Of a stretch of DNA of 64,000 bases, positions 5,476 through 61,781 are shown in pieces. Position numbers and translations under genes: made by a program. The number at the start of each line of letters is the position of its first letter. Position 1 is the first letter of the stretch. The stretch is from Labilibacter sediminis (GTDB taxonomy: Bacteria; Bacteroidota; Bacteroidia; Bacteroidales; Marinilabiliaceae): positions 248,001 through 312,000 of the forward strand of contig NZ_VCHY01000006.1 of assembly GCF_005877885.1 (NCBI RefSeq). The letters are read 5' to 3'. The notes under the pieces were generated by a model. The model was given only the letters and a program-made list of their open reading frames with translations, searched no databases and was not told the DNA's origin.

Positions 5476-6330
5476 ATGAAAAAATTATTACTTTTTGTAG
5501 TTATAGCTATTGTGGCTAATACTTTAAATGCGCAAGTTACGATTTGTGATTTTGAATCTCCATTAGCAAATGGACCAGTTATAATAGGGGGAAGTGGAAC
5601 TCAAACAGGTACTGTGGTTGTTAATCCAGAACCTGATGCAGTAAATTCTTCAGCAAATGTTTTAAAAACTACTATGAATGCAATTGGAGGTAATCCTGCC
5701 GGTAATAAGATTGATGCAGTTATGTTTCAACTTCCTGCCGGTGTTTCTTTTAAAGCAGGAGATTATGATGCAATAAAAGTTAATATTTATGTAACTGGAG
5801 GAACGCCTGCAACCATACTAAAACCAAGAGGTAAAGCAGGAATCTGGTTAGATGATGCTACTTCGCCAGCTCCTGGTACATGGATTGGAGTTGTAAAAAA
5901 TAGAGTTAATGGAGAAGATGGTTTAGCTACAGATCAAACCGAAGGATGGATGGAGTGTTATTTTGATATCTCTGGTAAAACTCAAACAGATGATTATAAT
6001 TCTATTCAAATTCAAATGGATTGGAATGATGCAAGACCAAATGCCTTAGAAATTTATTTTGATGATTTTGTGCTAGTTAATGAGATTCCAACAGGTATTG
6101 AATCTTTAGAAGAAAATGCTGCAAGTATTTATTATGCAAATGGATTGGTTCATGTTAAGTCAGAAGCTGCAGTTAATGAAATTACCGTTTCTGATATTAC
6201 AGGGAGAAAAGTAAAACAAGCGGTAGGTTCTAATCTTGAGCAAATTAGTATTTCAGATCTAAGTGAAGGTATTTATGTTGTAACAGTGAAGGGTTCAGGT
6301 TTGGTATATTCTCAAAAAATTATGAAATAA
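5476..6330 (+). CDS. Secreted T9SS protein with carbohydrate-binding-like beta-sandwich
   Basis: A 284-residue protein with an N-terminal signal peptide (to about residue 19, ...NTLNA-Q). Residues 20-205 form a predicted beta-sandwich that begins CDFES, contains a VVxNP...NSSANVLK segment and ends with YFDDFVLV. The same layout recurs in the C-terminal domains of three sulfatases and in the 8942 protein. Residues 210-284 are a T9SS type A sorting domain (ends EGIYVVTVKG...SQKIMK). No catalytic residues are recognised. It probably binds the target polysaccharide outside the cell. It stands alone between two terminators, behind an operator array. Function as a binding protein is inference. Confidence 0.75.
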   Translation: MKKLLLFVVIAIVANTLNAQVTICDFESPLANGPVIIGGSGTQTGTVVVNPEPDAVNSSANVLKTTMNAIGGNPAGNKIDAVMFQLPAGVSFKAGDYDAIKVNIYVTGGTPATILKPRGKAGIWLDDATSPAPGTWIGVVKNRVNGEDGLATDQTEGWMECYFDISGKTQTDDYNSIQIQMDWNDARPNALEIYFDDFVLVNEIPTGIESLEENAASIYYANGLVHVKSEAAVNEITVSDITGRKVKQAVGSNLEQISISDLSEGIYVVTVKGSGLVYSQKIMK

Positions 6331-6357
6331 TTCCTTTAAAATTACAATCATTATCAT

Positions 6358-6387
6358 GAAGGACTAGCTATATGTTAGTCCTTTTTT
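6358..6387 (+). terminator. Rho-independent terminator
   Basis: Stem GGACTA / TAGTCC (6361-6366 / 6376-6381) followed by a T-run, 28 bp after the stop of the T9SS binding-like gene. Confidence 0.75.
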
Positions 6388-6408
6388 GTCAACAATAAAT
6401 AAAAGTAT

Positions 6409-8688
6409 ATGACGATTTCGACAAAGAGTATTTTATTAATTGTTCTTAGTTTGTTGTATTTAGGTTTAGCTCAAGCGCAAAAGCCCAATATACTTATTAT
6501 CATGTCGGATGATCAGGCTAATAGGAGTATTAGTGCTTATGGAGCAGGTATTAATAATACTCCTGGAATGGATAGGGTTGCAAATGAAGGGGCAATATTT
6601 ATGAATAGTTACTGTGCCAATTCCATTTGTCAACCAAGTAGGGCGGCTATTCTTACAGGGAAACATAGTCACAAGAATGGAGTTTTTGGCAATGGATCCA
6701 CTTATGATAATACTCAACAGCAGCTTCCGGGTATACTTCAGGATAATGGATATAAAACAGCTGTTATTGGAAAATGGCATTTAAAAGGAGAAAATCCTGG
6801 CGCCTATTTCGACCATTGGAATATCTTAACAGAAGGTGGGGGACAAGGGTACTACTATAATCCAACATTTATTTCCCATACCGGAACCAGAGAGCAAATA
6901 GAGGGTTACTCGGCAGATTTAATTACTGATCAGTCGTTGGCATGGTTAAATAGCAATAGTGCTGATCCATTTTGTTTGATGGTTCATTTTAAAGGGCCTC
7001 ATGTGACACGGATGCCTATGATCCGCAACTTAAATTTATTTGAAGGTGAGGAAATACCTGAGCCGGCTACATTGTATGATGATTATTCATCGCGTGAAAT
7101 ATATGCATCTACAGCAATAAACCGTTTGCGATTTGATATTGAAACTACTGCCTATAATTACTTTCCGGCATATGGACAATATACTTTGTCAGATTATAAG
7201 CTGTTAGAGCGTATGACCGAGGAACAGCGTATTGCATATCATTCTTATTATGACGCAGCCAATAAGGAATATGATGACCTGGTTGCAGCAGGAACTGTTG
7301 TACCGGGGCAAAAGAGTGGTAAAGCTTATGCATATCAGCGATTTATAAAAGATTACCTAAAGGTAGTTGCAGGGATAGATCAAAATGTTGAAAGAATATT
7401 GACTTACTTGGATGACAATAATTTAACAGATAATACCATTGTAATATATTGTTCAGATCAAAGTTATTTTACCGGTCAGCATGGTTATTATGAAAAACGT
7501 TTTATTTATGAGGATGGAATGAAAATGCCGCTATTGATGCGTTATCCTGGACATATTACTCCCAATACTACAGTGAACGAAATGGTTCAGAATATTGATT
7601 TTGCACCAACCTTACTCGATTATCTGGGGATTGAAATTCCTGAGGATATGCAAGGTGAGTCATTTAGAAATGTTGTAGAAGGAAATGTGCCAAGTGATTG
7701 GAGAGAATCAGTATATTATCATTATTACGATCATGGCAAACATGGTATACCTAGACATGAAGGAATAAGAACGCATCAATATAAGTTGATTAATTTTTAT
7801 ACAGATGATGCCTGGGAGTTGTATGATTTAATAGCAGATCCCGACGAAATTAGTAATTTATATAAAGATCAAGCCTATGTAGATATTATCAAAAATTTAA
7901 AGCTTGAGCTGGCCATATTAAAACGTAAGTATGAAGTTCCAGGATCAGAGGAACGAGCTGAAGATTTTGAAGGTGGAGATTATTATAACAGCAGGGCAAA
8001 GTTAAATTGGGAGGTATTAAACTCGGGAGATGTTAGCTTTTCTGTGAGAAATAACCCTCAGGTAGCAGATATAAATCAAAGTGTAAAATCTGGTAAGGTT
8101 GTAAAAAATGTTGATACAGAAGCGGCAAGTGTTGCTGTTAATCTTAACAATGAATTTTGGGATTTAACTACATCTCAAAAAGCAAGTATCCAGTTAAAAA
8201 CAACAGTTAATACAAATGTGGCATTATGTTTTTCTAAGGCTGGTAATGATAAACAGTATTTTGGGATACAAACAATAAATGATAACCAATGGCATGAATA
8301 TATTATAGATTTATCATCAATCCCTTATGACCAGTTGCAAAATACTTTTAATCAGCTTGAACTTGTTTTTGGATATAATGATAATTCTAAAACAGGGACT
8401 TTATGGTTTGATAATTTATTATTTCAAGATAATTTATCTACGGACTTAAAGCAGATATCGTATGATGAATTAATGGTTTACCCTAATCCGACGCAAGGTT
8501 TAATTTCATTTTCTATGGATAATGAAGTTAGTAAAGTAGAGGTGTTTGATATACAGGGTAACCTTATGTTAGTTCAGACAGGAAATGATATTAGAAATAT
8601 TTCTCTTCATGAATTATCCAGAGGAAATTATTTAGTGCGTGTGTGGTCAAAAGGTAACTATTCAATCGCTAAGATATGTAAGAAATAG
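6409..8688 (+). CDS. Secreted S1-type sulfatase with CBM-like domain and T9SS tail
   Basis: A 759-residue protein hydrolysing sulfate esters. It has a signal peptide (to about residue 24), then a type I sulfatase domain (about 26-515). Metal ligands are in IIMSDDQ (Asp34, Asp35); the formylglycine motif is C74-Q-P-S-R78 followed by AAILTG; GKWHLKG and YCSDQ are further landmarks. Residues about 520-680 form a beta-sandwich ending LWFDNLLF, similar to the modules in 5476 and 8942; the last 80 residues are a T9SS type A sorting domain. The catalytic half resembles the sulfatase at 54904 (shared YYNP and late VQNIDFA/MQG motifs), which looks like the N-acetylglucosamine-6-sulfatase type; substrate remains unproven. 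It has its own terminator. Confidence 0.88.
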   Translation: MTISTKSILLIVLSLLYLGLAQAQKPNILIIMSDDQANRSISAYGAGINNTPGMDRVANEGAIFMNSYCANSICQPSRAAILTGKHSHKNGVFGNGSTYDNTQQQLPGILQDNGYKTAVIGKWHLKGENPGAYFDHWNILTEGGGQGYYYNPTFISHTGTREQIEGYSADLITDQSLAWLNSNSADPFCLMVHFKGPHVTRMPMIRNLNLFEGEEIPEPATLYDDYSSREIYASTAINRLRFDIETTAYNYFPAYGQYTLSDYKLLERMTEEQRIAYHSYYDAANKEYDDLVAAGTVVPGQKSGKAYAYQRFIKDYLKVVAGIDQNVERILTYLDDNNLTDNTIVIYCSDQSYFTGQHGYYEKRFIYEDGMKMPLLMRYPGHITPNTTVNEMVQNIDFAPTLLDYLGIEIPEDMQGESFRNVVEGNVPSDWRESVYYHYYDHGKHGIPRHEGIRTHQYKLINFYTDDAWELYDLIADPDEISNLYKDQAYVDIIKNLKLELAILKRKYEVPGSEERAEDFEGGDYYNSRAKLNWEVLNSGDVSFSVRNNPQVADINQSVKSGKVVKNVDTEAASVAVNLNNEFWDLTTSQKASIQLKTTVNTNVALCFSKAGNDKQYFGIQTINDNQWHEYIIDLSSIPYDQLQNTFNQLELVFGYNDNSKTGTLWFDNLLFQDNLSTDLKQISYDELMVYPNPTQGLISFSMDNEVSKVEVFDIQGNLMLVQTGNDIRNISLHELSRGNYLVRVWSKGNYSIAKICKK

Positions 8689-8941: not shown

Positions 8942-9697
8942 ATGAAAAAAATTACCCTTTTATTAGTAATGATTGGTATTGTTACCATGGGAAATGCGCA
9001 AGATTTGAATTTTGAAACTCCCGGGACTTCTGCCACATTTACTGGCTTTGCAGGTGCAGTAGTTAGTATTGTGAATAATCCTGTGCAAAATGTAAAGAAT
9101 CCTTCATCTAAAGTTCTACAATTTACAATCCCAACAGGAACAGGAGGGGATTTATGGGCCGGTGCGTGGTCTTCACATAGTGTTACAGTGTCAGGTTCTG
9201 GGCTTGTTAGGCTTAAGGCGTATAAGCCAGTGAAGAGTGGTTTAATATTTAAATTGGAATATGCTAGTGGTAATGATCCTAATAATGAGGAGATTAGTAT
9301 GGAAAATTCTTTGGTGGATGAATGGGAAACCATAGAGTATGATTTTTCAGGAAAAGATGGAATTGTATACCCAACAATAGTGATAATGCCTGATTGGACA
9401 TCTCCAAGGTCTTCAGAAACCGTGGTGTATATTGATGATATTGAATTCTTTCCAGTAGTTACTTCTGTTTATCAGGAGGAGTTAGATGATAGTAAGGTAT
9501 ATAAATCAGGAGATAAAGTAATTTATAAGTCTACTGCCAACATTACAGAAGTGTCAGTAGTTAATATCGGAGGAAGTACAGTATTAAAAGATACGCAGTT
9601 AAATGGAGAGCTGAACATTTCTTCATTGCAAAAAGGAGTGTATTTAGTTGTGTTAAAATCAGGTAAAACAAGCAGTGCATTTAAGATTGTAAAGTAG
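8942..9697 (+). CDS. Secreted T9SS protein with carbohydrate-binding-like beta-sandwich (second copy)
   Basis: A 251-residue protein with a signal peptide (ends GNA-Q at about residue 20). Residues 21-170 form the same module as in 5476: it starts DLNFE, has VVSIVNNPVQN...SSKVLQF and ends VYIDDIEFF. A GAW motif (about residue 75) is shared with the first module of the 32147 sulfatase (WAGAWAS). The C-terminal 75 residues are a T9SS type A sorting domain (KGVYLVVLKSG...FKIVK). It is monocistronic with its own operators and a terminator. A role in polysaccharide binding at the cell surface or outside is inferred; no enzyme motif is seen. Confidence 0.75.
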   Translation: MKKITLLLVMIGIVTMGNAQDLNFETPGTSATFTGFAGAVVSIVNNPVQNVKNPSSKVLQFTIPTGTGGDLWAGAWSSHSVTVSGSGLVRLKAYKPVKSGLIFKLEYASGNDPNNEEISMENSLVDEWETIEYDFSGKDGIVYPTIVIMPDWTSPRSSETVVYIDDIEFFPVVTSVYQEELDDSKVYKSGDKVIYKSTANITEVSVVNIGGSTVLKDTQLNGELNISSLQKGVYLVVLKSGKTSSAFKIVK

Positions 9698-10247: not shown

Positions 10248-13200
10248 ATGAAAAAAACGCTATTTGTAATTCTATTGGGAATTATGCAGTGTACGTTTCT
10301 TTTAGCACAGGAGCAAATGACTGTGCAAGGTAAAGTAACAGATTCCAGTAATGAGGGAATACCTGGTGTTTCTGTTGTGATAAAAGGAACTACACAAGGA
10401 ACAATAACAGATTTTGAAGGTAACTATTCAATTAGTGCTTTGTCAGATGCAATGCTAATTTTTAGCTTTATTGGTTATGAAAGTCAGGAAGTACCTGTAA
10501 ATAGTCAATCAGCAATTAATGTAATTCTGCAGGAATCGACAGAGTCATTAGATGAAGTTGTAGTTGTAGGGTATGGATCTCAAAAGGTTAAAGACCTTAC
10601 TTCAGCAATTACTACCGTTGCTTCTGAAGAATTAGCTAAAACTCCAGCTGCTACAGCTATGCAGGCTTTGCAAGGTAAAGTAGGAGGTATGCAGGTGGTA
10701 AGTTCTGGACAACCGGGTAACCAACCAACAGTAAGAGTTAGAGGTATTGGTTCTTTTCAATCTGCTGGACAAAATCCTTTATATGTGGTCGATGGGATGT
10801 TTTATGATAATATTGATTTTTTAAATATCTCTGAGATTGAATCTATTTCTGTATTAAAAGATGCATCGGCAGCTGCCATATATGGTGTAAGGGCTGCTAA
10901 TGGGGTAATCTTAATTGAGACAAAATCAGGTCAACAAGGAAAAACTGAAATAGAGTATGATGGCTACTATGGTTACCAGGTGGCACAAAATGTGCTTAAA
11001 ATGGCCAATGCCGAGCAATTCACAAATATGGCTTTGGAATCAGGTTCTGCTGTGGATTATGATTTTGTTTTAAACGCCATGCAAAAATATGGACGTAGTA
11101 GAGTTAATCCCAACGTTCCAAATGTAAATACCGACTGGTATAATGAAATTTTACGCCCGGCTCCTATTCAAAATCATAGCCTTAGTGCTCGAGGGGGTAG
11201 CGAAAAGATGACTTATGCTTTAGGAACGAGTTATTTTAAGCAAGATGGGATAATGGATGTGGAAAACTATTATGAAAGGTTTAATCTCACAGCTAAAATA
11301 GATGCTAAAGCGGGTGACCGTTTGTCTTATGGTGGAAACATAATTTTTAGTAATGCCATAAAAAAAGATCCAAATAACGATGCCTGGAAACAAGCATATC
11401 TAGCGGTACCAATATTACCAGTATACGATGAAGATTACAAAGGTATTTCTACTCCTGACAATTTTGCAGATGCTAAATTGTTAGGCTATAGAGGTCATCA
11501 AAATCCATTTCCAACGATGTTGTATAATGACAAGAAGATGGATATAATGAAGGTAAATGCCAATTTTTACGCTAAAATCGATCTAATTCCTTCAAAATTA
11601 TCTTTTAAAACTTCATACAACCATGCATACACTGCACTGAATAGTCGAGATGTTAATTTTCCATTTTATATGAATGACAATTGGTTTAGGGAGTTCTATA
11701 CTGAAGGAGAAGAAGAGGCTACAGCTTATAGGTCAGATTTTGTTAAAGTAAAAAAGGAAAACAAAACCTACTCAAATAAAATCTGGGATAATGTACTAAC
11801 ATATACAGATAATTTTGGTGCGCATAATATTAGTGTGATGGCTGGGTCATCATACCGACAAGAGTATAGTCATAATTTATGGGGCTCAGCAGAGGATATA
11901 CCAGCAGAAGAAGAGCAATATTGGTATATTGATGCAGGTCAAAATAAAGACTCTCACTTAACAGGTGATGGAGGAGCTAAGTACTACGGTCAATCTTACT
12001 TTAGTCGTTTATCGTACAATTTTAATAGCAAGTACATGTTGTATGCGACAATGCGTGCTGATGGTAGTAATAAATTTGAAAATACCTGGGCTTACTTCCC
12101 GGCAGTAGGTGCTGGATGGGTGTTATCGGAGGAAAACTTTTTGCAAAATGTTAGCGCTTTAGATTTTCTTAAATTAAGATTTGGTTGGGGACAGTTGGGT
12201 AATGATAAAATACCTCGTTCCGATGGTTCCGCTGCTACACAAATTAATTATGTAGCCCTTAATGATCAGCGTGTTTCGGGTACAGTAACCACAAACAATA
12301 TAAATGTTTTACGTTGGGAAGTTACTGAAGAAACAAACATAGGTTTGAGTGCCAATATGTTTAATAATCGTTTGGATATTGAGGCTGATTATTATGTGCG
12401 AGATACAAAAGATGCAGCTATTTATGTTAATACACCTGTTATAATGGGTGGCGGATTAAAGAGTGCTGGTGTTATTCGTAATTCAGGATTTGAATTAGCA
12501 TTAAGTTGGGATGATAACATTACTAGTGATCTAAGTTATGTTGTTGGAGCCACCTTATCAACCAATAAAAATGAAGTACGCGAATTGTATGGTCAGGATT
12601 ATATTGATGGAGGTTCTGCTGAATTTCGTCAACGTACAATTGTAGGAGAACCTTTATTGGCTTTCTATGGTTGGGAAACTGCTGGTGTTTATCAAAATAT
12701 GGATGAAATAAATGCCGACCCCATTGCTTTAGCCAATGGACTTGAACCAGGTGATTTCAAATATAAGGATCAGCAGTCTGAAGGAGAAGAAGGGTATGGT
12801 GTTATTGATGATAACGACCGTGTAGTGTTAGGTTCTTATTTCCCTACTTTAATGTATGGTGCTAACCTAGGTCTTAGATATAAAAACCTTCAGTTTACAA
12901 CCAATATTATGGGACAAACAGGTAATAAGATCCTAAATCGCAAAAGAGGAGAAGTTATTTGGACCAACGATACAAACTGGGATGCTGATTTAGCGACTAA
13001 CCGTTGGCACGGTGAAGGAACTTCTAACAAATACCCTTCATCAAAAGGGCTCAGAAAATCATGGAATCAAAAAATGAGCGATTACCTGGTTGAGGATGGT
13101 TCTTTCTTTAGAATCCAAAATATTCAGTTGGCTTATACGCTTTCAAATAAGGAGGTACTAGGAATTGAGATGCCGGCTACACGTATTTCATTTACAGCAG

Positions 13201-13319
13201 AGCGACCATTAACAATGTTTAGTTACAATGGATTTAGTCCAGAAGTAAATAATGGTGTAGACAACAAAGTACACCCTATTCCAGCTATTTACACTGTTGG
13301 CTTAAATGTTAAATTTTAA
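10248..13319 (+). CDS. susC: SusC-family TonB-dependent outer-membrane oligosaccharide transporter (pair 1)
   Basis: A 1023-residue outer-membrane barrel that imports oligosaccharides with TonB energy. It has a signal peptide (to about residue 21), then a carboxypeptidase D regulatory-like domain (about 24-100, VQGKVTDSSNEGIPGVSV), the TonB-box-like SLDEVVVVGYG (about 100-111), a plug domain with LYVVDGMFYD and VLKDASAAAIYGVRAANGVILIE, and a C-terminal beta-barrel ending in VGLNVKF (terminal Phe). Length is normal for SusC. The SusD partner follows directly, and the gene lies behind a candidate TGTATRGG-controlled promoter. It is likely expressed together with the following lipoprotein and GH144 genes. 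Confidence 0.95.
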   Translation: MKKTLFVILLGIMQCTFLLAQEQMTVQGKVTDSSNEGIPGVSVVIKGTTQGTITDFEGNYSISALSDAMLIFSFIGYESQEVPVNSQSAINVILQESTESLDEVVVVGYGSQKVKDLTSAITTVASEELAKTPAATAMQALQGKVGGMQVVSSGQPGNQPTVRVRGIGSFQSAGQNPLYVVDGMFYDNIDFLNISEIESISVLKDASAAAIYGVRAANGVILIETKSGQQGKTEIEYDGYYGYQVAQNVLKMANAEQFTNMALESGSAVDYDFVLNAMQKYGRSRVNPNVPNVNTDWYNEILRPAPIQNHSLSARGGSEKMTYALGTSYFKQDGIMDVENYYERFNLTAKIDAKAGDRLSYGGNIIFSNAIKKDPNNDAWKQAYLAVPILPVYDEDYKGISTPDNFADAKLLGYRGHQNPFPTMLYNDKKMDIMKVNANFYAKIDLIPSKLSFKTSYNHAYTALNSRDVNFPFYMNDNWFREFYTEGEEEATAYRSDFVKVKKENKTYSNKIWDNVLTYTDNFGAHNISVMAGSSYRQEYSHNLWGSAEDIPAEEEQYWYIDAGQNKDSHLTGDGGAKYYGQSYFSRLSYNFNSKYMLYATMRADGSNKFENTWAYFPAVGAGWVLSEENFLQNVSALDFLKLRFGWGQLGNDKIPRSDGSAATQINYVALNDQRVSGTVTTNNINVLRWEVTEETNIGLSANMFNNRLDIEADYYVRDTKDAAIYVNTPVIMGGGLKSAGVIRNSGFELALSWDDNITSDLSYVVGATLSTNKNEVRELYGQDYIDGGSAEFRQRTIVGEPLLAFYGWETAGVYQNMDEINADPIALANGLEPGDFKYKDQQSEGEEGYGVIDDNDRVVLGSYFPTLMYGANLGLRYKNLQFTTNIMGQTGNKILNRKRGEVIWTNDTNWDADLATNRWHGEGTSNKYPSSKGLRKSWNQKMSDYLVEDGSFFRIQNIQLAYTLSNKEVLGIEMPATRISFTAERPLTMFSYNGFSPEVNNGVDNKVHPIPAIYTVGLNVKF

Positions 13320-52636: not shown

Positions 52637-54892
52637 ATGAACAGGTTAAGCTATTTATTCATATTAATGTTGCTGGCTGTTATAATGCCATCTGAAGCAA
52701 AAAAGAAAAAAGGTAGTAGTGTCGCCCCTAAAGGCATTAGCGAAAGGGTAGATAGTTTATTACAATTAATGACATTAGAGGAGAAAATTGGTCAAACAGT
52801 TTTATTTACCAGTCGTTGGGATGTAACAGGGCCGGTATTGCGCGATGGAGAAGAGGATGCCATTAAGTCAGGACAGTGTGGAAATATTTTTAATGCACAT
52901 ACTGCGGAGTATACGCGGAAACTTCAAAAAATGGCTGTTGAGGAAACGCGTTTGGGAATTCCTTTACTTTTTGGATATGATGTTATTCACGGGCACCAAA
53001 CATTGGCTCCTATTTCATTAGGGGAGTCAGCAAGCTGGGATTTAGAGTTGATTGAAAAAAGTGCTCGTATGGCTGCACGTGAGGCTGCAGCTTGTGGCCT
53101 TCACTGGACTTTTGCGCCTATGGTTGATATTGGTCGTGATCCTCGTTGGGGACGCGTTTCTGAAGGAGCCGGTGAAGATCCTTATTTAGGAATAGAGATT
53201 GCAAAAGCACGAGTTAAAGGGTTTCAGGGTGACGATCTGGCCGACAAAGAAACGGTTTTGGCCTGTGTAAAACATATGGCGGCATACGGAGCAGCGCAAG
53301 CCGGACGTGACTACAATAGTGTTGATATGTCGGAACGTGTATTACGTGAAACATATTTGCCTGCATATAAAGCTGCTATTGATGCAGGAGCCAGAACGGT
53401 CATGACTTCTTTTAATGATTTAGATGGAGTTCCGGCAACAGCTAATTCATTTCTATTAAAAGATATTCTTCGTGATGAATGGGGGTTTGATGGAATGGTA
53501 GTGACAGATTATACTGCCATCAATGAGTTGATACCTCATGGTGTTGCAAAAGATGAGTATGATGCAGGTGTACTTGCTATGAAGGCCGGTGTGGATATGG
53601 ATATGGAAGGTGGCATTTATATGGACCATCTTAAAAAAGCCATAGAAAATGGAGATGTTGCAATGGAGGAGTTGGATAATGCTGTTCGTAACGTGCTAGC
53701 TTTAAAATTTGAGTTGGGGATTATGGATGATCCATATAGATATTGCGATGAAGAAAGGGAAAAAGAGGAGGTTTTAAGTGCGCAAAATCGTGAAACAGCC
53801 TATCAAATGGCGGCTAAGTCATGTGTGTTATTGAAGAACGATAATTCAGCTCTTCCAATAAATGCAAATGAAAAGGTTGCAGTAATAGGTCCTTTGGCTA
53901 ATTCTAAACGCGATTTACTTGGTTCGTGGAAAGCAGCAGGTAAGCCACAAAGTGTTCAAGCTACTATATTAGATGCTATCATTAAAAACGGAGGTAGCGA
54001 AAATGTTACCTTTTCTAAAGGTTGCGACATCAATACAGATAATAAGGCAGGATTTGCAAAGGCTATAGAGCAGGCTAAAAAAGCAGATAAAGTAATCATG
54101 GTGATGGGTGAAAAGTGGAGTATGTCAGGAGAAGCTGCATGTCGTACAAATCTGGATTTTCCAGGGGTGCAACCTGAATTAATTCAGGAAATTACCGCTC
54201 TGGGTAAGCCGGTTGTGTTGGTGTTTATGACAGGTAGGGCTATGACAATTCAAAAAGAAAGCGAATCAGTTGATGCTTTGTTAAATGTATGGTATCCAGG
54301 TGTAGAAGGAGGAAGGGCTGTTGCTGATATTTTATATGGTAAGGAAAATCCTTCAGGGAAACTAACAATGACATTCCCAAGAAACGTAGGTCAAATTCCA
54401 ATCTTTTATAGTTATAAAAGAACAGGGCGACCATTTGATCCTTCAAAACCAAAAGATACTTATAAGTCAAGATATTTAGATGTGCAGAATACACCACTTT
54501 TTCCATTTGGTTATGGATTAAGTTATACTCAGTTTGAATATTCTGATATTACTATTAGTAATTCGGAGTTAGTCAGCGGAAATTCAATTGAGGTTAGTGT
54601 TTCTGTAACCAACTCAGGTAATTATGATGGCGAAGAAGTGGTGCAACTTTATATCTGGGATCAGGTAGCTTCCGTAACTCGTCCGGTTAAAGAATTAAAA
54701 GGATTTAAAAAAGTAAAAATTAATAAAGGAGATACACAAAAAGTAAACTTTACTATTAATGAAGAAGATCTGAAGTTTTATCGAAAAGATATGACTTTTG
54801 GTGCTGAAGATGGTCAATTCACCATTTATATAGGAAGTGATTCAGATGCTTCTAACAGTGTTGAATTTTCATTAACAGGAGTAAAACTTTAA
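52637..54892 (+). CDS. GH3 beta-glucosidase-like enzyme (copy 2)
   Basis: A 751-residue family 3 glycoside hydrolase with a signal peptide (ends PSEA, about 21) followed by a lysine patch (KKKKGSS). The nucleophile is Asp291 in VVTDYTAINEL; the probable acid/base is Glu499 in SMSGEAACRTN; the C-terminal Fn3-like domain begins around VSVSVTNSGNYDGEEVVQLYI. It is clearly a paralogue of the 27928 GH3 (LTLEEKIGQ, DPRWGRV.EGAGED, ACxKHxxxYGAAQAGRDY), but lacks its lipobox, so it is likely soluble periplasmic. It lies between the serine hydrolase and, 11 bp downstream, a sulfatase. Confidence 0.92.
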   Translation: MNRLSYLFILMLLAVIMPSEAKKKKGSSVAPKGISERVDSLLQLMTLEEKIGQTVLFTSRWDVTGPVLRDGEEDAIKSGQCGNIFNAHTAEYTRKLQKMAVEETRLGIPLLFGYDVIHGHQTLAPISLGESASWDLELIEKSARMAAREAAACGLHWTFAPMVDIGRDPRWGRVSEGAGEDPYLGIEIAKARVKGFQGDDLADKETVLACVKHMAAYGAAQAGRDYNSVDMSERVLRETYLPAYKAAIDAGARTVMTSFNDLDGVPATANSFLLKDILRDEWGFDGMVVTDYTAINELIPHGVAKDEYDAGVLAMKAGVDMDMEGGIYMDHLKKAIENGDVAMEELDNAVRNVLALKFELGIMDDPYRYCDEEREKEEVLSAQNRETAYQMAAKSCVLLKNDNSALPINANEKVAVIGPLANSKRDLLGSWKAAGKPQSVQATILDAIIKNGGSENVTFSKGCDINTDNKAGFAKAIEQAKKADKVIMVMGEKWSMSGEAACRTNLDFPGVQPELIQEITALGKPVVLVFMTGRAMTIQKESESVDALLNVWYPGVEGGRAVADILYGKENPSGKLTMTFPRNVGQIPIFYSYKRTGRPFDPSKPKDTYKSRYLDVQNTPLFPFGYGLSYTQFEYSDITISNSELVSGNSIEVSVSVTNSGNYDGEEVVQLYIWDQVASVTRPVKELKGFKKVKINKGDTQKVNFTINEEDLKFYRKDMTFGAEDGQFTIYIGSDSDASNSVEFSLTGVKL

Positions 54893-54903
54893 ACACACTA
54901 CCC

Positions 54904-56457
54904 ATGCAAAAAATAGCTAAAATATTATTTACGGTCGCTTTATTTGTTTCGGCAATAAACCTGACCTCATGTGAAGCTGTTGCTGAGAAGAAACAGCCCA
55001 ATATAATACTGATTACTTCAGATGATCATGCCATACAAGCCATTGGTGCCTATGGTCATGAATTGTCTAAGTTGGCACCAACGCCAAATATCGATCGTAT
55101 TGCTACCAATGGTGCTTTATTTACTAAAGCTTTTTGTACTAATTCGTTATGCGGTCCAAGTAGAGCAACTATATTAACAGGTAAGTTTAGTCATATAAAT
55201 GGCTTTACCCGTAACCGCGACAAGTTTGATCAAAATCAACCAACTTTTCCTAAGTATTTACAAAAGGCAGGTTACGAAACAGCGTTGGTTGGAAAATGGC
55301 ATTTAAAAGGAGTGCCAACCCAGGGATTTGATTACTGGAGTGTGTTAAATGATCAGGGTGAGTATTATAACCCGGACTTTATTACCGGAAAAGATACTGT
55401 GATGAATATGGGGTATGCAACGGATTTAATTACAGATAAATCTTTGAACTGGTTGCAGAAACAAAGAGATACAGATAAGCCGTTTATGTTGATGGTGCAA
55501 AATAAGGCTCCACATCGTAACTGGTGGCCTGCTGAGCGTCATTATAATATGTACGATTCCGTTTCATTCCCGGTACCGGATACTTATTTTGATGATTATA
55601 AAGGCAGAGTTGCTGCCAAAAGGCAAAAGATGAATATCTATAGAGATATGTATGAGGGACATGATTTAAAAATGACTGTTTCGGCAGGAGTAGATAGTTT
55701 TAGGTATGATCCCTGGCCTCACTTATTTAACAGGGCGACAGAAGAACAAAAAGAGCGTTTTTGGAACGCCTATCGACCAATAAATGAAGCTTTCCATAAA
55801 ATGGACTTGAATGAAAAGGAACTCGCCTTATGGAAGTATCAGCGTTATTTACAGGATTATATGGCTACTATTGCTTCAGTAGATGAAAATGTAGGTAGAA
55901 TATTAGATTATCTGGAAGAAAGTGGATTGGCAGAAAATACGATTGTGATTTATACATCCGACCAGGGATTTTATTTAGGAGAGCATGGATTCTTTGATAA
56001 GAGATTTATGTATGAAGAGTCGTTTAGAACTCCGCTTTTAATACAATACCCTAAAACAGTTGAGCCGGGTATTGTCATTGATAAAATGGTTCAGAATTTA
56101 GATTTTGCTGAAACTATTCTTGATTATTGTGGAATTGAAATTCCTAAAGATATGCAAGGTGTATCTTTAAAACCTCTTTTGCAACAGGAGGAAGTTGATC
56201 AATGGCGCGATGCTTTGTACTATCACTTTTATGAGTTTCCTGGTTTTCATGCTGTTCGTCGTCACTACGGTGTGCGCACAGAACGTTATAAACTAATGTA
56301 TTTCTATCATCAAATGGAGAAATGGGAATTGTATGATTTAGAGTCGGATCCATCAGAAGTTAACAACCTGTATGGTAAGCCTGGGTATGAAACCATTACC
56401 CGAGAACTGAAAAAGAAGTTGTCGGAACTTCAAAAACAATACAAAGAAAATATATAA
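54904..56457 (+). CDS. S1-type sulfatase, GlcNAc-6-sulfatase-like, lipoprotein
   Basis: A 517-residue lipoprotein (lipobox LTSC, Cys23). The formylglycine motif is C83-G-P-S-R87 (ATILTGKFSH); TSDDHAIQAIGAYG carries the metal ligands; GKWHLKG, NKAPHRNWWP and YTSDQGFYLGEHGFFDKR are further landmarks. The layout with LNDQGEYYNPDF and MVQNLDFAETILDYCGIEIP is typical of bacterial sulfatases related to N-acetylglucosamine-6-sulfatase (from memory), suggesting 6-O-desulfation. It is related to the catalytic half of the 6409 sulfatase. The stop codon overlaps the first base of an inverted-repeat element at 56457. Confidence 0.87.
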   Translation: MQKIAKILFTVALFVSAINLTSCEAVAEKKQPNIILITSDDHAIQAIGAYGHELSKLAPTPNIDRIATNGALFTKAFCTNSLCGPSRATILTGKFSHINGFTRNRDKFDQNQPTFPKYLQKAGYETALVGKWHLKGVPTQGFDYWSVLNDQGEYYNPDFITGKDTVMNMGYATDLITDKSLNWLQKQRDTDKPFMLMVQNKAPHRNWWPAERHYNMYDSVSFPVPDTYFDDYKGRVAAKRQKMNIYRDMYEGHDLKMTVSAGVDSFRYDPWPHLFNRATEEQKERFWNAYRPINEAFHKMDLNEKELALWKYQRYLQDYMATIASVDENVGRILDYLEESGLAENTIVIYTSDQGFYLGEHGFFDKRFMYEESFRTPLLIQYPKTVEPGIVIDKMVQNLDFAETILDYCGIEIPKDMQGVSLKPLLQQEEVDQWRDALYYHFYEFPGFHAVRRHYGVRTERYKLMYFYHQMEKWELYDLESDPSEVNNLYGKPGYETITRELKKKLSELQKQYKENI

Positions 56458-56719
56458 CCTGAGTTCGATTAAAATTAAAGAGCTCAGATTTCATTAGATG
56501 ATTAATTTACAATGTAAATTTTCGAGACATAGCGAGCTATGGTGAGAAAATTTAAAGCAGTAAATGGATTATTTAATGAAAAGCGCACAGATTCCACTTA
56601 TAAACATCCATTTTCTGCGTCATATTTGTTAGTCATAGCCCGCTATGTCGTCACAAATATTTCTTGAAACTAAATGTTTATAAGCAGTCTGAGCCAATAA
56701 TTTTATATCGAACTCAGGT
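56457..56719. mobile_element. MITE-like element with terminal inverted repeats
   Basis: A 263-bp non-coding element. The left end starts ACCTGAGTTCGAT then TAAAATTA; the right end is its complement with one extra base (ATCGAACTCAGGT). ATATA flanks both sides and may be a target duplication. Inside are several nested hairpins, for example CATAGC-GAG-CTATG near 56530, CATAGC-CC-GCTATG near 56640, and paired ATATTTGT/ACAAATAT and CTTATAAACAT/ATGTTTATAAG. No reading frame is present. The left end supplies the last base of the upstream gene's TAA. Confidence 0.75.
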
Positions 56720-56757
56720 ATATAGGTAAAATACCTTGTATATGGTGGGTAAACTAT

Positions 56758-56800
56758 CAAAGGCAGATTGATTGTTTTAAGGACAATCAGTTTGTCTTTG
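56758..56800. other. Long imperfect hairpin upstream of the 56893 sulfatase
   Basis: Arms 56758-56775 (CAAAGGCAGATTGATTGT) and 56783-56800 (ACAATCAGTTTGTCTTTG) pair over about 16 of 18 positions with a 7-nt loop. No T-run follows. It may belong to the 5' leader of the downstream sulfatase mRNA. Confidence 0.55.
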
Positions 56801-56892
56801 AACAATAAGCGTTATATTATTAGTTAAGTAGGTGCTTATTGAGTTTATTTTAATTGCCTTTAAAATAATGCATGTAAAGCAATTCGAAACTT

Positions 56893-58677
56893 ATGAAAAA
56901 TTCTATTTTTTTATTCCTGTTTATATGGGTTTTAGCTATCCAGGCAAGTGCTCAACAAAAGCCTAATATTATCGTTATTTTGGCCGATGATTTAGGAAAT
57001 GCTGACGTTGGATACCATGATCAGTTAAAAGATATACCTACTCCAAATATCGATCAATTGGCAAAATCAGGCGTTCGGTTTGATGCAGGTTATGTAACAG
57101 CTCCGGTTTGTGGCCCATCACGAGCAGGGTTACTATCAGGTCAGTATCAACAATCTTTCGGATTTGATGATAATCCTGGTCCTTTTAGAGCAGGAAAAGG
57201 GATACACGCTGGTATACCTACATCGGTTTCTATCATTCCGGAGTATTTAAAACCTTTGGGTTATCAAACAGCCTGTATTGGTAAATGGCATGTGGGACAC
57301 GAAACAGATGAGCACTTTCCAACCAATCGCGGATTCGACTATTTTTTTGGTTTTTTAGGTGGGGCAGCTAATTATTATCCGGAAAATAATGTTGAAAGAA
57401 CGCTTTTTAAAAATACAAAACCTGTTGAAAAAGAAGATGAGTATTTAACAGATGCATTTGGAAGGGAAGCAGCTGAATATATCAATACAAATAAGGACAA
57501 GCCTTTTTTTATATATGTAGCGTTTAATGCGGTACATGGCCCTCTTCAAACTCCGCCGGAAAATTATACAAAGGAATTTGCGCATATGCCTGAAGGTAAA
57601 AGAGCAATACTTTGTGCCATGCAATATGCCATGGATGTAAATGTGGGTAAAATTATAACAGCACTTGATGATAATGACTTGCGCGAAAATACCTTGGTGT
57701 TTTTTGTGAGCGATAACGGAGGTAAAATCAAAGGAAATTATTCATATAACAATCCCTATAAGGGTGAAAAAGGAACCTTGTACGAAGGAGGTATTCGATT
57801 ACCGTTTTGTGTTTCCTGGCCTCAGGCATTTCCTAAGGGAATTACATATGAGCACCCGGTATCTACTTTAGATATTTTACCAACAATTTTAAGCGCTGTT
57901 GATGGTCAAATTAATGAAGGTTTGAATGGTGTTAACCTGGAGCCTTATCTTAATAATAAAATCGAATCAACTCCGCATAACTATATGTACTGGCGCATAA
58001 ATAACAAGTGGGCAGTTCGAAATAGAGAATGGAAGTTGGTGTACAATGATAAAAATGCAGATCCGGAGTTGTATCATATAATTATGGATAAATCAGAAAC
58101 GAATGAGTGTTCTGCAGAATATCCCCAAGTGGTAGAGGAATTAAAGGCTAAGTATGACGTGTGGTCGAAAAAAGCAGGCAGTCCAAAATGGGGATGGAAT
58201 CCAAAAGTGGGGAAGATTGTTCGTCATCCAAATGAAGATTTTGAGGGAATTAGTACAGAGCATTTTGTTGCTAAAGGATCCGGTGTTTCAGTTGTCTATT
58301 CAAAAAATCCTTTTGTTAAAGTAGGCAATGAAAGCGAAAATGTGTTAGAAATTATTCCCGGATCGAAAAAAAACATAAATGAATTTGGCACTTCAGCTAG
58401 GGTTATGCAGTTTCAAAAGCGTTATCGGTATATGTGTGCTAAAATACATTTAACTGAGCAATGTGATATTTATGCAGTATTAAAAGGTAAAAATGTTTTG
58501 AAGGTAAAAAGTATGAATAAAAACATTGAAGAAAATGCCTGGCAAAACGTAGTCTTTGATTTTCGTGAATTTAAAGGACCTGTAAATAATTTAAGTATAT
58601 TGTTTAAAACTAAAAAAGGAGAAAAAATGTCATCAATTTATATTGATGATGTTCATTTTTGTGATAATATTAAATGA
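56893..58677 (+). CDS. S1-type sulfatase with C-terminal CBM-like module
   Basis: A 594-residue protein with a signal peptide (ends ASA-Q, about 21). The catalytic domain (about 23-435) has LADDLGNADVGY, formylglycine motif C73-G-P-S-R77 (AGLLSG), GKWHVGH and FVSDNGGK. The C-terminal module (about 450-594) starts HPNEDFEGI, contains VVYSKNPF...ESENVLEI and ends IYIDDVHFCD, the same layout as the modules in 32147, 5476 and 8942. Unlike 32147, there is no T9SS tail, so it is probably periplasmic. The shared catalytic sequence with 32147 (GFLGGAANYYPENN vs GFLGGASSYFPGDN) suggests a duplication that split into extracellular and intracellular forms. Confidence 0.88.
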   Translation: MKNSIFLFLFIWVLAIQASAQQKPNIIVILADDLGNADVGYHDQLKDIPTPNIDQLAKSGVRFDAGYVTAPVCGPSRAGLLSGQYQQSFGFDDNPGPFRAGKGIHAGIPTSVSIIPEYLKPLGYQTACIGKWHVGHETDEHFPTNRGFDYFFGFLGGAANYYPENNVERTLFKNTKPVEKEDEYLTDAFGREAAEYINTNKDKPFFIYVAFNAVHGPLQTPPENYTKEFAHMPEGKRAILCAMQYAMDVNVGKIITALDDNDLRENTLVFFVSDNGGKIKGNYSYNNPYKGEKGTLYEGGIRLPFCVSWPQAFPKGITYEHPVSTLDILPTILSAVDGQINEGLNGVNLEPYLNNKIESTPHNYMYWRINNKWAVRNREWKLVYNDKNADPELYHIIMDKSETNECSAEYPQVVEELKAKYDVWSKKAGSPKWGWNPKVGKIVRHPNEDFEGISTEHFVAKGSGVSVVYSKNPFVKVGNESENVLEIIPGSKKNINEFGTSARVMQFQKRYRYMCAKIHLTEQCDIYAVLKGKNVLKVKSMNKNIEENAWQNVVFDFREFKGPVNNLSILFKTKKGEKMSSIYIDDVHFCDNIK

Positions 58678-58710
58678 TTGTGTGAATTATCATGACGAAG
58701 CTACTTATTA

Positions 58711-58781
58711 AATAAACATACTAATATCACAAGTTTTTTGATTCATAAGGTTTAATATACTTGTGATTAAGTATGTTTATT
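58711..58781. terminator. Long inverted repeat, probable terminator
   Basis: Arms 58711-58734 and 58759-58781 (AATAAACATACT...CACAAGT and its complement) pair almost completely with a 24-nt loop, then TTT. It lies 34 bp after the 56893 sulfatase. A smaller repeated ACTTAAGT occurs just after it, before the regulator gene. Confidence 0.55.
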
Positions 58782-58898
58782 TTGTCTTGAACTTAAGTCG
58801 TAAACTTAAGTTTAATTAAAGCTTTAAAGCTCATATTTTATTTAGCCAGATTTTATTTAGCTTTATAGTTAAATCTACCATTGAAAAGAAATAAAAGA

Positions 58899-61781
58899 AT
58901 GCGAAATAAAAGTGCTTTATTTTTATTAGTTCTGTTTATGGGTGTGAATACCTGTATGTGGGCAAATAATTTTAAAATACCTCAAGTAACTACCTTCTAT
59001 AAACATCAATACCATGCAAGTAACCGTAACTGGGGGGTGGCTCATGGTAAAGATGGTTATGTATATATTGGCAACGAAAAAGGTTTGCTGAGTTTTGATG
59101 GTGTTAATTGGAAGTTATATGAACTTCCCAACCATTCACGCGTTCGTTCCATTTGCGTATCTTCAAAAGGAATAATTTATACAGGCTCTGCTGCTGAAAT
59201 AGGATATTGGAAGAGAGATAAAAGTGGGGAGTTAAAGTATACTTCTTTAAAACCTAAAATGGTTGGTCTTACCTTTCATAATCAGGATATATGGCGAATA
59301 TTTGAGGATGAGAAAAAGCAAATTATTTTTCAGGGATTTTCACTGATTCTTAAGTATAACGGGCATCAGGTGGCAAGTGTAGATATGGATGCGCCACCTT
59401 CATTAATGGTAGAATTTAATGATCGTCTCATTGGAGGAACACGAAGAGGAAATTTAGTAGAGTTAACTGAATTTGGGTTAAGTAATATTCTTCATTCTGA
59501 ATATTTACGAGGCTCGTTTGTTAAAGCTGTGTTGCCGCTTAGCAAGCAGGCATCAATAATTGCAACAAATAATAAAGGTTTCTTTATTTGGGAAAATAGT
59601 GAGTTAAAACCATGGCAATGCGAGGCCAATGATGTGATAGCTTCAGAGGGAATTAATTGTGCGCTTAGCCAAAATGGTTACTATTATATCGGAACAGTTA
59701 ACTCAGGTATTTATGTGGTAAATACAAAGGGTAAAATTTTGTATCAAATCAACAGTAAGAATCACTTACAGGATAATACCATTTTATTTATGCAATTTGA
59801 TGATCACCAGCGTTTATGGTTTACAATGAGTGTTGGTGTTGGGTATGCAGAGTTAAATAATCCGTTAAATTTAATCATAGATCATTCGCGTAATATAGGA
59901 GCTGTACATGATGTAGCGTTTTTTAATGATAAGCTCTATCTGGCCACCAACAAAGGGGTTTTTTATACAAATTTCCCCAAAGGAAGCACCTTAACGTCAT
60001 TCCGGGATTTTCATTCAATTCCGGAATTAATTGGTTTAGCATGGTCAATAAAGGTTATTGATAACCAGTTATTATGCGGACATAATAAAGGAACCTTTCT
60101 TATATCAGAAAAAGGTGTAAAAAGAATATCCCGAATAACGGGAGGAAAAAGTTATCAATTATTTAAAATTAAAAATAACTCGTATGTGGTACAAAATACG
60201 TATACTGAGTTGGTTGTATTTAAAAAAGATGAAAATAGGGAGTGGGTATTTAACTCTGTTATAAGTGGGTTTTATGAACCTACATTTGATATAGCGGTTG
60301 ATCATAAGAATCAAATTTGGGCACAACACATTCGTAAAAATGAACTTTATAGTCTTCGCTTACAAGAAAATTTAAGGGATGCATACAGTTACAATGTGTA
60401 TAGACAGGAGCAAGGACTTCCATTGGATATGAGCAGTCAGATTGCTGAATTCAATAATCGTATAGTTATTACTAGTTCTAATGGTTTGTATACTTACGAC
60501 CAGCTAAAGGATTCTATCGTTTATTATGATGAGATAAATAAGCAACTTGGAGAATATAAAAGTGCTTCTAAGATTAAAAAGCAAAGTGAGAACTTTTATT
60601 GGTTTATAAAGGGGGCAAGTATTGCATTATATGATTTTTCAACAGAAAACGCGGGTAAAATATTTCAGTATTCATTCGATGAACCTCATGTTGGTTTGGT
60701 AGAGCGTTTCGAAAATATTGTGTCAATAGAATCCATCGGAAGCTTTATATGTTTAGAGAATGGTATTGCGTTTATTAGTGATGATAATCTTAAATTGTTT
60801 AACCAAAAACAAAGTAGCGCTTCATTTGCGTTAAATGTAAGAGGTAGTTATAGTTTAAGAGGTAAGAAAGATGAGCATACACTTCGAATAAAGAATTCCA
60901 CAATATTGGAACTTCCATATAAACATAGTGAGGTTAAATTAAATATTGCTACGCTTGCAGCACCAGGTAAAATACTTCATTTAAAATATACTATTGAGAA
61001 TGATGAAGAAAAGGAAGTACATTATACAACAAACCCGGACGCCCTGTTGAATAGGTTAAAACCAGGTCGCTCAAAAGTAAGCATTGAAGTGGTGGATATG
61101 CAGAGAAACGACGTTGAACCGCTAACTTTTTTTATAGAAGTAGAAAAACCGTTTTATCTTAAGCTGAGATTTTTATTAATATTTGGGGTTGTTTTAGTGT
61201 TGGTGATTTTTACCTCGTATTATCGTTTTAAACGTAATCTTAATAAATACATAAAGGATCATAAAGCAGAAGGAAATAATTTAATTGAGCCGAAAAAAAT
61301 TGGAGTTGAGGATTTACTTCACCAGAAAGAGATGCTGGAGGAAAAAGTAAATGCACAAAATAACCAGATTGCTACGGGAGCTCTTAATAGCATTAGAAAT
61401 AAAGAGGTGCTTACCTTTTTAAAGAGTGAGTTAACGGAGCAAAAAGAAATATTAGGTGTCAGGTATCCGGATAAGTACTATAAAAAACTTGTTGATTTAA
61501 TAGATACCAATATTCATGTTGAAGATGACTGGGTTGTTTTTGAAAAACATTTTGATGAGGCAAATGGTAATTTCTTTAGCAAACTAAAAGAAGAGTTTCC
61601 TCAATTAACACCAAGAGACTTGCGTTTATGCGCTTATTTAAAGATGAACCTGTCGAGTAAAGAAATATCTCCTTTACTTAATATTTCAGAACGAAGTGTT
61701 GAAGTTCATCGATATCGTTTAAGGAAAAAACTAAATCTTTCTTCAAATAGTAATTTGTCGGATTTTATGATTGCATACTAA
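58899..61781 (+). CDS. Membrane one-component regulator: beta-propeller, Y_Y_Y, TM, LuxR-type HTH (paralogue 2)
   Basis: A 960-residue paralogue of 35139. The ATG at 58899 is preferred to TTG 58881 because it starts directly at the signal sequence. Propeller blades run from about residue 30 (ASNRNWGVAHGKDGYVYIGNE) to 690, a degenerate Y_Y_Y domain follows (LHLKYTIENDEEKEVHY), then a TM helix (about 765-785, LLIFGVVLVLVIF), a coiled coil and a LuxR-type HTH (LTPRDLRLCAYLKMNLSSKEISP, SVEVHRYRLRKKLNL). The recognition helix is nearly identical to that of 35139, so both probably read the same DNA motif while sensing different ligands. It is transcribed with the PUL strand. Confidence 0.9.
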   Translation: MRNKSALFLLVLFMGVNTCMWANNFKIPQVTTFYKHQYHASNRNWGVAHGKDGYVYIGNEKGLLSFDGVNWKLYELPNHSRVRSICVSSKGIIYTGSAAEIGYWKRDKSGELKYTSLKPKMVGLTFHNQDIWRIFEDEKKQIIFQGFSLILKYNGHQVASVDMDAPPSLMVEFNDRLIGGTRRGNLVELTEFGLSNILHSEYLRGSFVKAVLPLSKQASIIATNNKGFFIWENSELKPWQCEANDVIASEGINCALSQNGYYYIGTVNSGIYVVNTKGKILYQINSKNHLQDNTILFMQFDDHQRLWFTMSVGVGYAELNNPLNLIIDHSRNIGAVHDVAFFNDKLYLATNKGVFYTNFPKGSTLTSFRDFHSIPELIGLAWSIKVIDNQLLCGHNKGTFLISEKGVKRISRITGGKSYQLFKIKNNSYVVQNTYTELVVFKKDENREWVFNSVISGFYEPTFDIAVDHKNQIWAQHIRKNELYSLRLQENLRDAYSYNVYRQEQGLPLDMSSQIAEFNNRIVITSSNGLYTYDQLKDSIVYYDEINKQLGEYKSASKIKKQSENFYWFIKGASIALYDFSTENAGKIFQYSFDEPHVGLVERFENIVSIESIGSFICLENGIAFISDDNLKLFNQKQSSASFALNVRGSYSLRGKKDEHTLRIKNSTILELPYKHSEVKLNIATLAAPGKILHLKYTIENDEEKEVHYTTNPDALLNRLKPGRSKVSIEVVDMQRNDVEPLTFFIEVEKPFYLKLRFLLIFGVVLVLVIFTSYYRFKRNLNKYIKDHKAEGNNLIEPKKIGVEDLLHQKEMLEEKVNAQNNQIATGALNSIRNKEVLTFLKSELTEQKEILGVRYPDKYYKKLVDLIDTNIHVEDDWVVFEKHFDEANGNFFSKLKEEFPQLTPRDLRLCAYLKMNLSSKEISPLLNISERSVEVHRYRLRKKLNLSSNSNLSDFMIAY

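Follow-up and report, generated by a model that had tools for sequence, protein, structure and literature searches.

Introduction

Sulfatase genes have been noted before in the vicinity of β-1,2-glucanase genes. In the available portions of their study, Lapebie et al. (2019; PMC6499787) described marine Bacteroidetes polysaccharide utilization loci (PULs) that contain glycoside hydrolase family 144 (GH144) together with a sulfatase. As their target the authors suggested a sulfated polysaccharide that is not yet known, understood as a sulfate-decorated form of a terrestrial glycan. A cluster of one GH3, two GH144, susCD and sulfatase genes was reported in Maribacter dokdonensis (PMC8072126); the parts of that paper that are available, which predate GH194, propose glucosidase or endoglucanase activity only. 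GH194 is a β-1,2-glucanase family described in 2025, and the chain of structure 8xuk is PgSGL3 of Photobacterium gaetbulicola, a Group 3 (GH194) enzyme that was assayed and, according to the sections available, reported to be β-1,2-glucan-specific (Nakajima et al., 2025; PMC12102758). Here we analyzed a 64,000-nt stretch of the 6.36 Mb genome of Labilibacter sediminis (hereafter the window; positions 248001-312000 of contig NZ_VCHY01000006.1), in which nine sulfatase genes stand among GH144, GH194 and GH3 genes. We consider that this region probably represents two adjoining PULs for a sulfated β-1,2-glucan.

The window shares with the PULs of Lapebie et al. (2019) the association of GH144 with sulfatase genes in a marine-type member of the Bacteroidetes, and it has the enzyme combination of the Maribacter cluster. 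However, the available passage of the 2019 paper refers to "a sulfatase gene" and to Bacteroidetes, whereas the window carries nine sulfatases of four groups and GH194 in addition, and we add a sulfatase clade common with Gammaproteobacteria and a candidate sulfate position. The core idea is therefore already published, and our finding is a larger variant that adds support to the 2019 guess; what is new is the connection to GH194, a sulfatase clade almost dedicated to such loci, the extension to a second phylum and the form with nine sulfatases. In the text of PMC12102758 sulfatases are not mentioned, all seven matches to "sulfat" being reagents. A literature search, which left most subscription papers and bioRxiv preprints outside its reach, returned one relevant paper on GH194 and none pairing "oligoglucan phosphorylase" with "sulfatase".

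Sulfatases Are Interleaved With Predicted Glucanases in Two Gene Runs

The window contains nine sulfatases, six proteins of clan GH-S (four GH144-type and two GH194), two GH3 enzymes, two SusC/SusD pairs and three propeller sensors, and no GH family other than GH144, GH194 and GH3 was found among the 34 window open reading frames (ORFs) scanned. Genes are named here by their start coordinate and lie on the plus strand unless stated otherwise. Most of them fall into two runs, PUL A (10248-34945) and PUL B (40350-58677), within each of which every gene is on the plus strand; 19 of the 21 intergenic gaps are shorter than 230 bp and the longest is 435 bp. The enzyme genes of PUL A are ordered GH144, GH144, two sulfatases, GH144, two sulfatases, GH3, GH144 and sulfatase, and those of PUL B sulfatase, GH194, serine hydrolase, GH3 and two sulfatases. 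The same-strand runs, the short gaps and the position of sulfatases between glucanases indicate a grouping beyond chance.

Much of this inventory had been read from the sequence in an earlier note on the same DNA. The nine S1-type sulfatases that it listed all exceed the PF00884 cut-off and all carry the C-x-P-[ST]-R formylglycine motif, both GH3 enzymes score above the NCBIfam BglX cut-off, and the two SusC/SusD pairs were recovered. Three propeller sensors are likewise present, but the third lies beyond the region that the note had covered and is cut by the window end. The note had also counted six glycoamylase-fold proteins, three of them with the GH144 acidic cluster; PF10091 accounts for four of the six and homology to GH194 for the other two, and D-x3-D-x2-E was found at the GH144 position in exactly three proteins (16061, 18283 and 22659). 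We considered the idea that the count of six was inflated, as Pfam alone gives four, and rejected it once the GH194 pair restored the total.

Two Predicted β-1,2-Glucanase Families and Their Companion Enzymes

Judged from sequence, the GH144 and GH194 proteins of the window are members of two β-1,2-glucanase families in which the catalytic residues are kept, with only the Glu column kept in 30372. PF10091 exceeded its cut-off in four proteins, at 190-267 bits. These are 16061 (16061-18058; 267 bits), a predicted lipoprotein-like β-1,2-glucanase with Big_5 domains; 18283 (18283-19635), a predicted endo-β-1,2-glucanase closest to CpSGL (5gzh; phmmer E 1.7e-176); 22659 (22659-24842), a predicted GH144-type glucanase with a long N-terminal region; and 30372 (30372-31733). 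The first three share the motif [KR]-D-x-G-G-D-x-V-E, which reads KDDGGDIVE in 16061 and RDNGGDLVE in 22659, and the column of the general-acid Glu (E211 of CpSGL) is kept in all four. In 30372 the DxxxDxxE motif is absent, and that region resembles XcSGL (8xul), an assayed GH144 enzyme.

The predicted GH194 β-1,2-glucanase 49961 (49961-51304) had no Pfam match even at E up to 5, and matched the solved chain of PgSGL3 at E 1.5e-104 and at E 4.3e-129 with a four-row profile. Its D134 and E200 are invariant across the four GH194 rows, and both are also kept in the second window copy, 38247 (38247-39845, minus strand; 37-38% identical to 49961), a predicted β-1,2-glucanase with a type IX secretion system (T9SS) tail. 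Through a chain offset of 20 the two residues pair with D148 and E214 of PgSGL3, the catalytic Asp being given once as D148 and elsewhere as D149 in the available text (PMC12102758). PgSGL3 thus shares with 49961 its family, its subclade (see below) and the catalytic Asp/Glu pair. A search of the host genome with 49961 returned, besides 38247 (38%), two further copies, on C88 (57%) and C110 (38%). The C88 copy has a long C-terminal extension and a GH94-type phosphorylase nearby (PF17167, 544.6 bits), with no sulfatase found, and its locus (L010) is possibly a separate β-glucan route.

Both GH3 proteins are predicted β-glucosidases of the BglX type: 27928 (27928-30249; lipoprotein-like) scored 815 bits against NF011678 (cut-off 666), and 52637 (52637-54892) 847 bits. 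Relatives of 52637 include BT_3567 (5xxl) and Lin1840, two enzymes with a preference for β-1,2 linkages. Between GH194 and GH3 in PUL B lies 51354 (51354-52550; PF00144), a β-lactamase-fold serine hydrolase with relatives in four other GH194 loci; relatives near GH194 were seen in Carboxylicivirga (50% identical), an Ichthyobacteriaceae metagenome-assembled genome (MAG; 38%) and a Colwellia MAG (33%); it is a possible esterase that removes an acyl substituent. T9SS sorting tails are present on two sulfatases (6409-8688 and 32147-34945) as well as on the GH194 protein 38247-39845, and desulfation and cutting may therefore begin extracellularly. Lipobox and compartment calls come from a crude motif scan.

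GH194 Genes of One Subclade Recur With Sulfatases

A GH194 profile scan of species genomes yielded 50 loci, and their flanks were searched with profiles made from the window proteins; flanking sulfatases were detected with a profile of the window's own nine, which may miss distant kinds. A tree of 56 GH194 rows (quick search, support by the Shimodaira-Hasegawa-like approximate likelihood ratio test only) put 49961 in a subclade of 20 rows (support 93) that includes PgSGL3 and has members from Marinilabiliaceae, Prolixibacteraceae, Ichthyobacteriaceae, Colwellia, an Alteromonadaceae MAG, Endozoicomonas, Photobacterium and Vibrio. The nearest loci among named strains are those of Carboxylicivirga (Marinilabiliaceae), at 74% identity. 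For the statistical comparison PgSGL3 (no locus) and L037_14470 (a weak fragment) were dropped, reducing the 56 rows to 54, and both window rows were entered by hand as sulfatase-positive, 38247 being positive solely via the shared window. A sulfatase was found nearby in 16 of 19 subclade loci, from Bacteroidota and Gammaproteobacteria, vs 2 of 35 loci outside the subclade (Fisher p 6e-9), one of these two being 38247; when only loci of at least 16 kb were considered the counts were 14 of 17 and 2 of 24 (p 2e-6). In 10 of 13 subclade loci sulfatases were locally denser than the genome rate predicts (Poisson P ≤0.018, with L028 at 0.018), after loci of four genomes with PF00884 counts of at least ~67 (G000, G395, G396 and G403) had been left out; in L027, from a Breznakibacter MAG, and L031, from the Alteromonadaceae MAG, no sulfatase was found in this test. 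All of these p values are nominal, given that the subclade was chosen from the tree and that its rows are related. PgSGL3 itself sits on branches of ~0.02-0.03 beside genes of P. lutimaris and P. rosenbergii that have flanking sulfatases. As an assayed enzyme reported to be β-1,2-glucan-specific, it links the sulfatase-rich subclade to chemistry.

Some of these loci differ in their accessory genes. In L027 the order is SusD, GH3, a 267-aa relative of an esterase-like protein, a GH43-like protein and GH194, with no sulfatases, and the locus of Sunxiuqinia (L025) has the same order plus two sulfatases after GH3, which makes the two a natural comparison pair. A GH43-like protein stands beside GH194 in L025, L027, L029, L030 and L032 and in three loci outside the subclade (members of this cluster were checked with Pfam in L025 and L030), which suggests that the glycan of these organisms bears an additional side-chain sugar.

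One Sulfatase Clade Is Nearly Confined to Glucanase Loci

Pairwise identity divides the nine window sulfatases into four groups. Group A comprises 19836 (19836-21188), 21204 (21204-22544), 24849 (24849-26231), 32147 (32147-34945; with Fn3 and a T9SS tail) and 56893 (56893-58677), which are 39-54% identical to one another; group B comprises 6409 (6409-8688; E-K-R subtype with a PF18962 T9SS tail) and 54904 (54904-56457; S1_11-like, family B1), which are 41% identical; and groups C and D are represented by 48328 (48328-49851) and 26258 (26258-27862), respectively. Among solved structures, the group A member 56893 best matches S1_19-type carrageenan sulfatases; the best matches of group C are human N-sulfoglucosamine sulfohydrolase and S1_8 entries, and those of group D, at moderate scores, include S1_15 entries. 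The four groups suggest that more than one sulfate position is attacked, the relation to solved enzymes being close only for 54904.

In structure searches with Foldseek the top matches of 54904 were 7p24 (BT3177_S1_11; 49% identical), 5g2v (BT4656; 48%), 7ebp (an Akkermansia sulfatase; 42%) and BuS1_11 (35%), while identity was 34-36% to L-galactose and porphyran sulfatases and 20-22% to phosphonate monoester hydrolases. According to the available portions of PMC10154612, BT3177 and BT4656 (S1_11) take the 6-O-sulfate off N-acetylglucosamine (GlcNAc) or N-sulfoglucosamine (GlcNS), the His of the S1_11 triad contacts O3 and its Asp/Arg pair O4, and aquatic S1_11 members with the same triad have L-galactose as substrate. 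D365-K-R367 and H449 of 54904, candidates for this triad, are invariant in ten orthologs. The structure model of 54904 that served for the fold search has a mean predicted local distance difference test score of 74 and is of low confidence at the loops near the active site, and no residue claims are based on it. From the identity to BT3177 and BT4656 we give a roughly even chance to glucose 6-O-sulfate as the target of 54904, whose predicted substrate, O2-linked glucose, differs from the GlcNAc or GlcNS 6-sulfate of these two enzymes.

Of 345 Bacteroidota genomes surveyed, 118 have PF10091. Sixty GH144 loci were taken, one per genome, from 60 of the 118 genomes at the top of the list, places near contig starts being skipped, and all 11 loci with a sulfatase hold one that is closest to group B. 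The search of the 345 genomes with 54904 itself (best ≤4 matches per genome) gave 81 listed matches: 4 of the host's own, 8 best and 69 lower. Among the matches listed, the eight best non-self ones are 56-63% identical to 54904 and score above 640 bits, and seven of them lie in GH144/GH3 loci. With the same profiles, neither GH144, GH194 nor GH3 was found within ~10 kb of any of 18 lower matches, which were taken from the upper part of the 69 and not at random.

A 48-row sulfatase tree from a careful search, with the family B rows L019, L047 and L086 left out, placed 54904 in a 17-row clade (99/98) of which 16 members, from two phyla, lie in GH144 or GH194 loci. The clade unites the GH194-linked sulfatases of Carboxylicivirga, Sunxiuqinia, Saccharicrinis, Endozoicomonas and Photobacterium with GH144-linked ones. 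One sulfatase lineage thus accompanies two different glucanase families in two phyla, and a single inherited operon is not an easy explanation for this. In a second clade, of eight rows (100/98), 6409 is grouped on a long branch with gammaproteobacterial sulfatases that flank GH194. For 56893 of family A, the phylum search (best ≤3 candidates per genome) returned one relative outside the host genome at E ≤1e-110.

A Gammaproteobacterial Counterpart

Photobacterium rosenbergii has an island of ~65 kb (L172-L175) with two GH194 genes, 12 sulfatase ORFs and two β-lactamase-family proteins, which we regard as the gammaproteobacterial counterpart of the window. Its transport genes comprise a solute-binding protein and an ABC (ATP-binding cassette) ATPase, both recognized by Pfam, and two permease-like ORFs that were not scanned. 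One further ORF exceeded the cut-off for an anaerobic sulfatase maturase (first 270 residues scanned), and another protein has SOGP domains over their cut-offs with no NCBIfam match. SOGP denotes 1,2-β-oligoglucan phosphorylase, and this protein is a putative SOGP-type phosphorylase, domain matches being no proof of activity. SOGP_N was detected in four of 15 genomes searched (those of two Photobacterium, Vibrio inusitatus and Endozoicomonas), with GH194 ~8 to 48 kb away and, by coordinates, presumably on the same contigs; among these 15, it was not found in Colwellia, Alteromonadaceae or nine Bacteroidota genomes, the host included. As in SOGP uptake systems, the Photobacterium island has both the SOGP domains and parts of an ABC transporter, while the nine Bacteroidota lack SOGP_N and have SusC/D and GH3.

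Proposed Pathway and Alternative Explanations

Six clan GH-S proteins and two GH3 enzymes with no other GH family and with sulfatases interleaved among them argue for a sulfated β-1,2-glucan as the target, as do the coupling of the GH194 subclade to sulfatases, the clade of 54904, the specificity of PgSGL3 and the P. rosenbergii island. In the pathway that we infer, with its substrate sulfation, sulfate positions, compartments and order of steps, secreted T9SS-tailed GH194 and sulfatases would cut the polymer together with surface lipoprotein GH144 enzymes, and the SusC/D pairs would take up sulfated sophoro-oligosaccharides. Sulfates at different positions would be stripped off by exo-sulfatases of at least four families, 54904 being the candidate for glucose 6-O-sulfate; the two GH3 enzymes would act last and free glucose, and the propeller sensors would turn the genes on. 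Of the two alternatives in the earlier note, which did not name GH194, the first, a sulfated glucan possibly with β-1,2 linkages, is the better supported one, by two β-1,2-glucanase families, PgSGL3 and the SOGP domains, the sulfation of the substrate still being our deduction.

Several observations weigh against this reading. We know of no sulfated β-1,2-glucan, and none appeared in the literature listings searched. Near GH144, sulfatases were found in 11 of 60 loci vs 1 of 20 control stretches (from 20 of the same 60 genomes, chosen for long contigs), which is not significant (one-sided p 0.14; G226 was scored negative, its sulfatase falling just beyond the 20-kb stretch, as found in L153). 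Of the 11 GH144-locus sulfatases, five are of a distant subtype (34-37% identical), and the four of these that are in the tree fall outside the 17-row clade; one clade member, from G335 (L152), has no glucanase within 10 kb, the GH144 locus of that genome being on another contig. Within the GH194 subclade no sulfatase was found in three of the 19 loci, namely the C88 copy of the host, the Alteromonadaceae MAG and the Breznakibacter MAG, and the single sulfatase of L026 could be accounted for by the genome rate (P 0.17). The best solved matches of families A, C and D are enzymes that act on carrageenan, heparan-type or other glycans, and the top match of 54904 among solved structures by sequence, 9s03, carries only the name "Putative sulfatase". 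Finally, the assay of PgSGL3 used an unsulfated polymer.

One rival explanation has a plain, unsulfated bacterial β-1,2-glucan as the substrate, the sulfatases then serving another glycan of a neighboring or hybrid locus. No sulfatase was found in 49 of the 60 Bacteroidota GH144 loci, and a cluster with GH29, GH43 and six sulfatases lies directly downstream of the window, both of which favor this explanation. We nevertheless consider it improbable, since in both runs the sulfatases are interspersed among the glucanases, such an arrangement is seen in two phyla, and the sulfatase clade is nearly confined to glucanase loci while the family B enzyme of the downstream cluster falls outside it. Alternatively, the GH144 and GH194 enzymes of the window may have shifted to another sulfated backbone, as the earlier note had offered for its GH144-like enzymes. 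The usual GH144 acidic motif is indeed missing in 30372, 22659 has a long, uncharacterised N-terminal region, and the similarity of families A, C and D is to sulfatases that act on other glycans. Yet 18283 matches CpSGL at E 1.7e-176 with its catalytic columns kept, D134 and E200 of 49961 align with the catalytic pair of PgSGL3, a SOGP-domain protein accompanies GH194 in the Photobacterium island, and the 34 window ORFs scanned hold no other GH family. Such a shift is less likely than a sulfated β-1,2-glucan, and we regard it as very improbable.

Osmoregulated periplasmic glucans (OPGs) can be β-1,2-linked and bear phosphoglycerol and succinyl groups, and enzymes with the formylglycine motif include phosphonate monoester hydrolases. 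The target might then be a substituted OPG, with the sulfatase-like proteins being phosphodiesterases that remove phosphoglycerol or similar groups and 51354 being a deacylase, a role that would suit the occurrence of the serine hydrolase or its relatives in five GH194 loci, the window included. The chance of this appears slight indeed, as 54904 shares 48-49% identity with two carbohydrate 6-O-sulfatases vs 20-22% with phosphonate monoester hydrolases, the Photobacterium island has an anaerobic sulfatase maturase, and the sulfatase-positive named strains belong to genera known as marine.

Beyond the window, we lean toward the view that there is an unrecognised polysaccharide in the sea, a sulfated β-1,2-glucan that carries 6-O-sulfate on glucose as well as other sulfates, and that at least two phyla eat it by means of a shared sulfatase lineage and two separate uptake routes. 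Bacteroidota would rely on SusC/D with GH144, GH194 and GH3, and Vibrionaceae and Endozoicomonas on an ABC transporter together with a SOGP-type phosphorylase and GH194. If a sulfated β-1,2-glucan is indeed the target, the 2019 suggestion becomes directly testable with a named sulfatase lineage (54904 and its orthologs), a bond position (glucose O6) and a crystallised glucanase of the same subclade. Named strains carrying such loci belong to Carboxylicivirga, Saccharicrinis, Photobacterium, Vibrio and Endozoicomonas, and the enzymes could act as probes for the polymer and its producer.

Accessory Genes and Related Loci

The remaining genes of the two runs are those expected to bind and import glycans. 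PUL A begins with a SusC-type TonB-dependent transporter (10248-13319; PF13715 and PF07715; 74% match in Carboxylicivirga mesophila), a SusD-type lipoprotein (13320-14909; PF07980; also with a Carboxylicivirga match) and a probable surface glycan-binding lipoprotein with a LamG-type domain (14893-16020; PF13385; lipobox-like motif). PUL B begins with a probable surface glycan-binding protein (40350-41744), which has no Pfam match over cut-off and is assigned from its position before SusC, followed by the SusC-type transporter (41793-44921; PF07715 and PF13715), the SusD-type lipoprotein (44934-46649; PF07980) and a probable surface glycan-binding lipoprotein (46670-48100) with relatives in three GH194 loci (L022, L023 and L024). 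Ahead of PUL A, two small T9SS-tailed secreted proteins (PF18962) flank 6409: one at 5476-6330, in which no catalytic domain was found and whose membership in the locus is deduced from position only, and one at 8942-9697.

The propeller sensors lie at 35139-38018 on the minus strand (PF07494 and PF07495, with the LuxR-type DNA-binding domain PF00196), at 58881-61781 (also with a LuxR-type domain, by Pfam) and at 61896-64000 (by Pfam), where the window end truncates the gene; this last one may be part of the next downstream cluster instead. Besides six sulfatases, that cluster (312001-332000 of the contig; L020) encodes a GH29 fucosidase, a GH43 protein and a SASA esterase. The family B enzyme among its sulfatases groups with unlinked ones, outside the 17-row clade, though the family D one is 68% identical to 26258, and we tentatively set aside the idea that the cluster is part of the same system. 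At the other end, ion-antiporter, ferredoxin-type and hydrogenase-maturation genes (685-4949) look unrelated to the locus. Rfam and tRNA scans of the window gave no matches.

Carboxylicivirga mesophila and C. sediminis have a PUL A of matching order, with proteins 61-81% identical and an extra GH3 at 35-39%; 24849 and 30372 had no match in the stretches fetched from these two species. C. linearis has a smaller PUL A with a 69% match to 26258, and no family A sulfatase was seen in its stretch. In three Carboxylicivirga genomes PUL A and PUL B are on different contigs, whereas in the window they adjoin, which fits one substrate.

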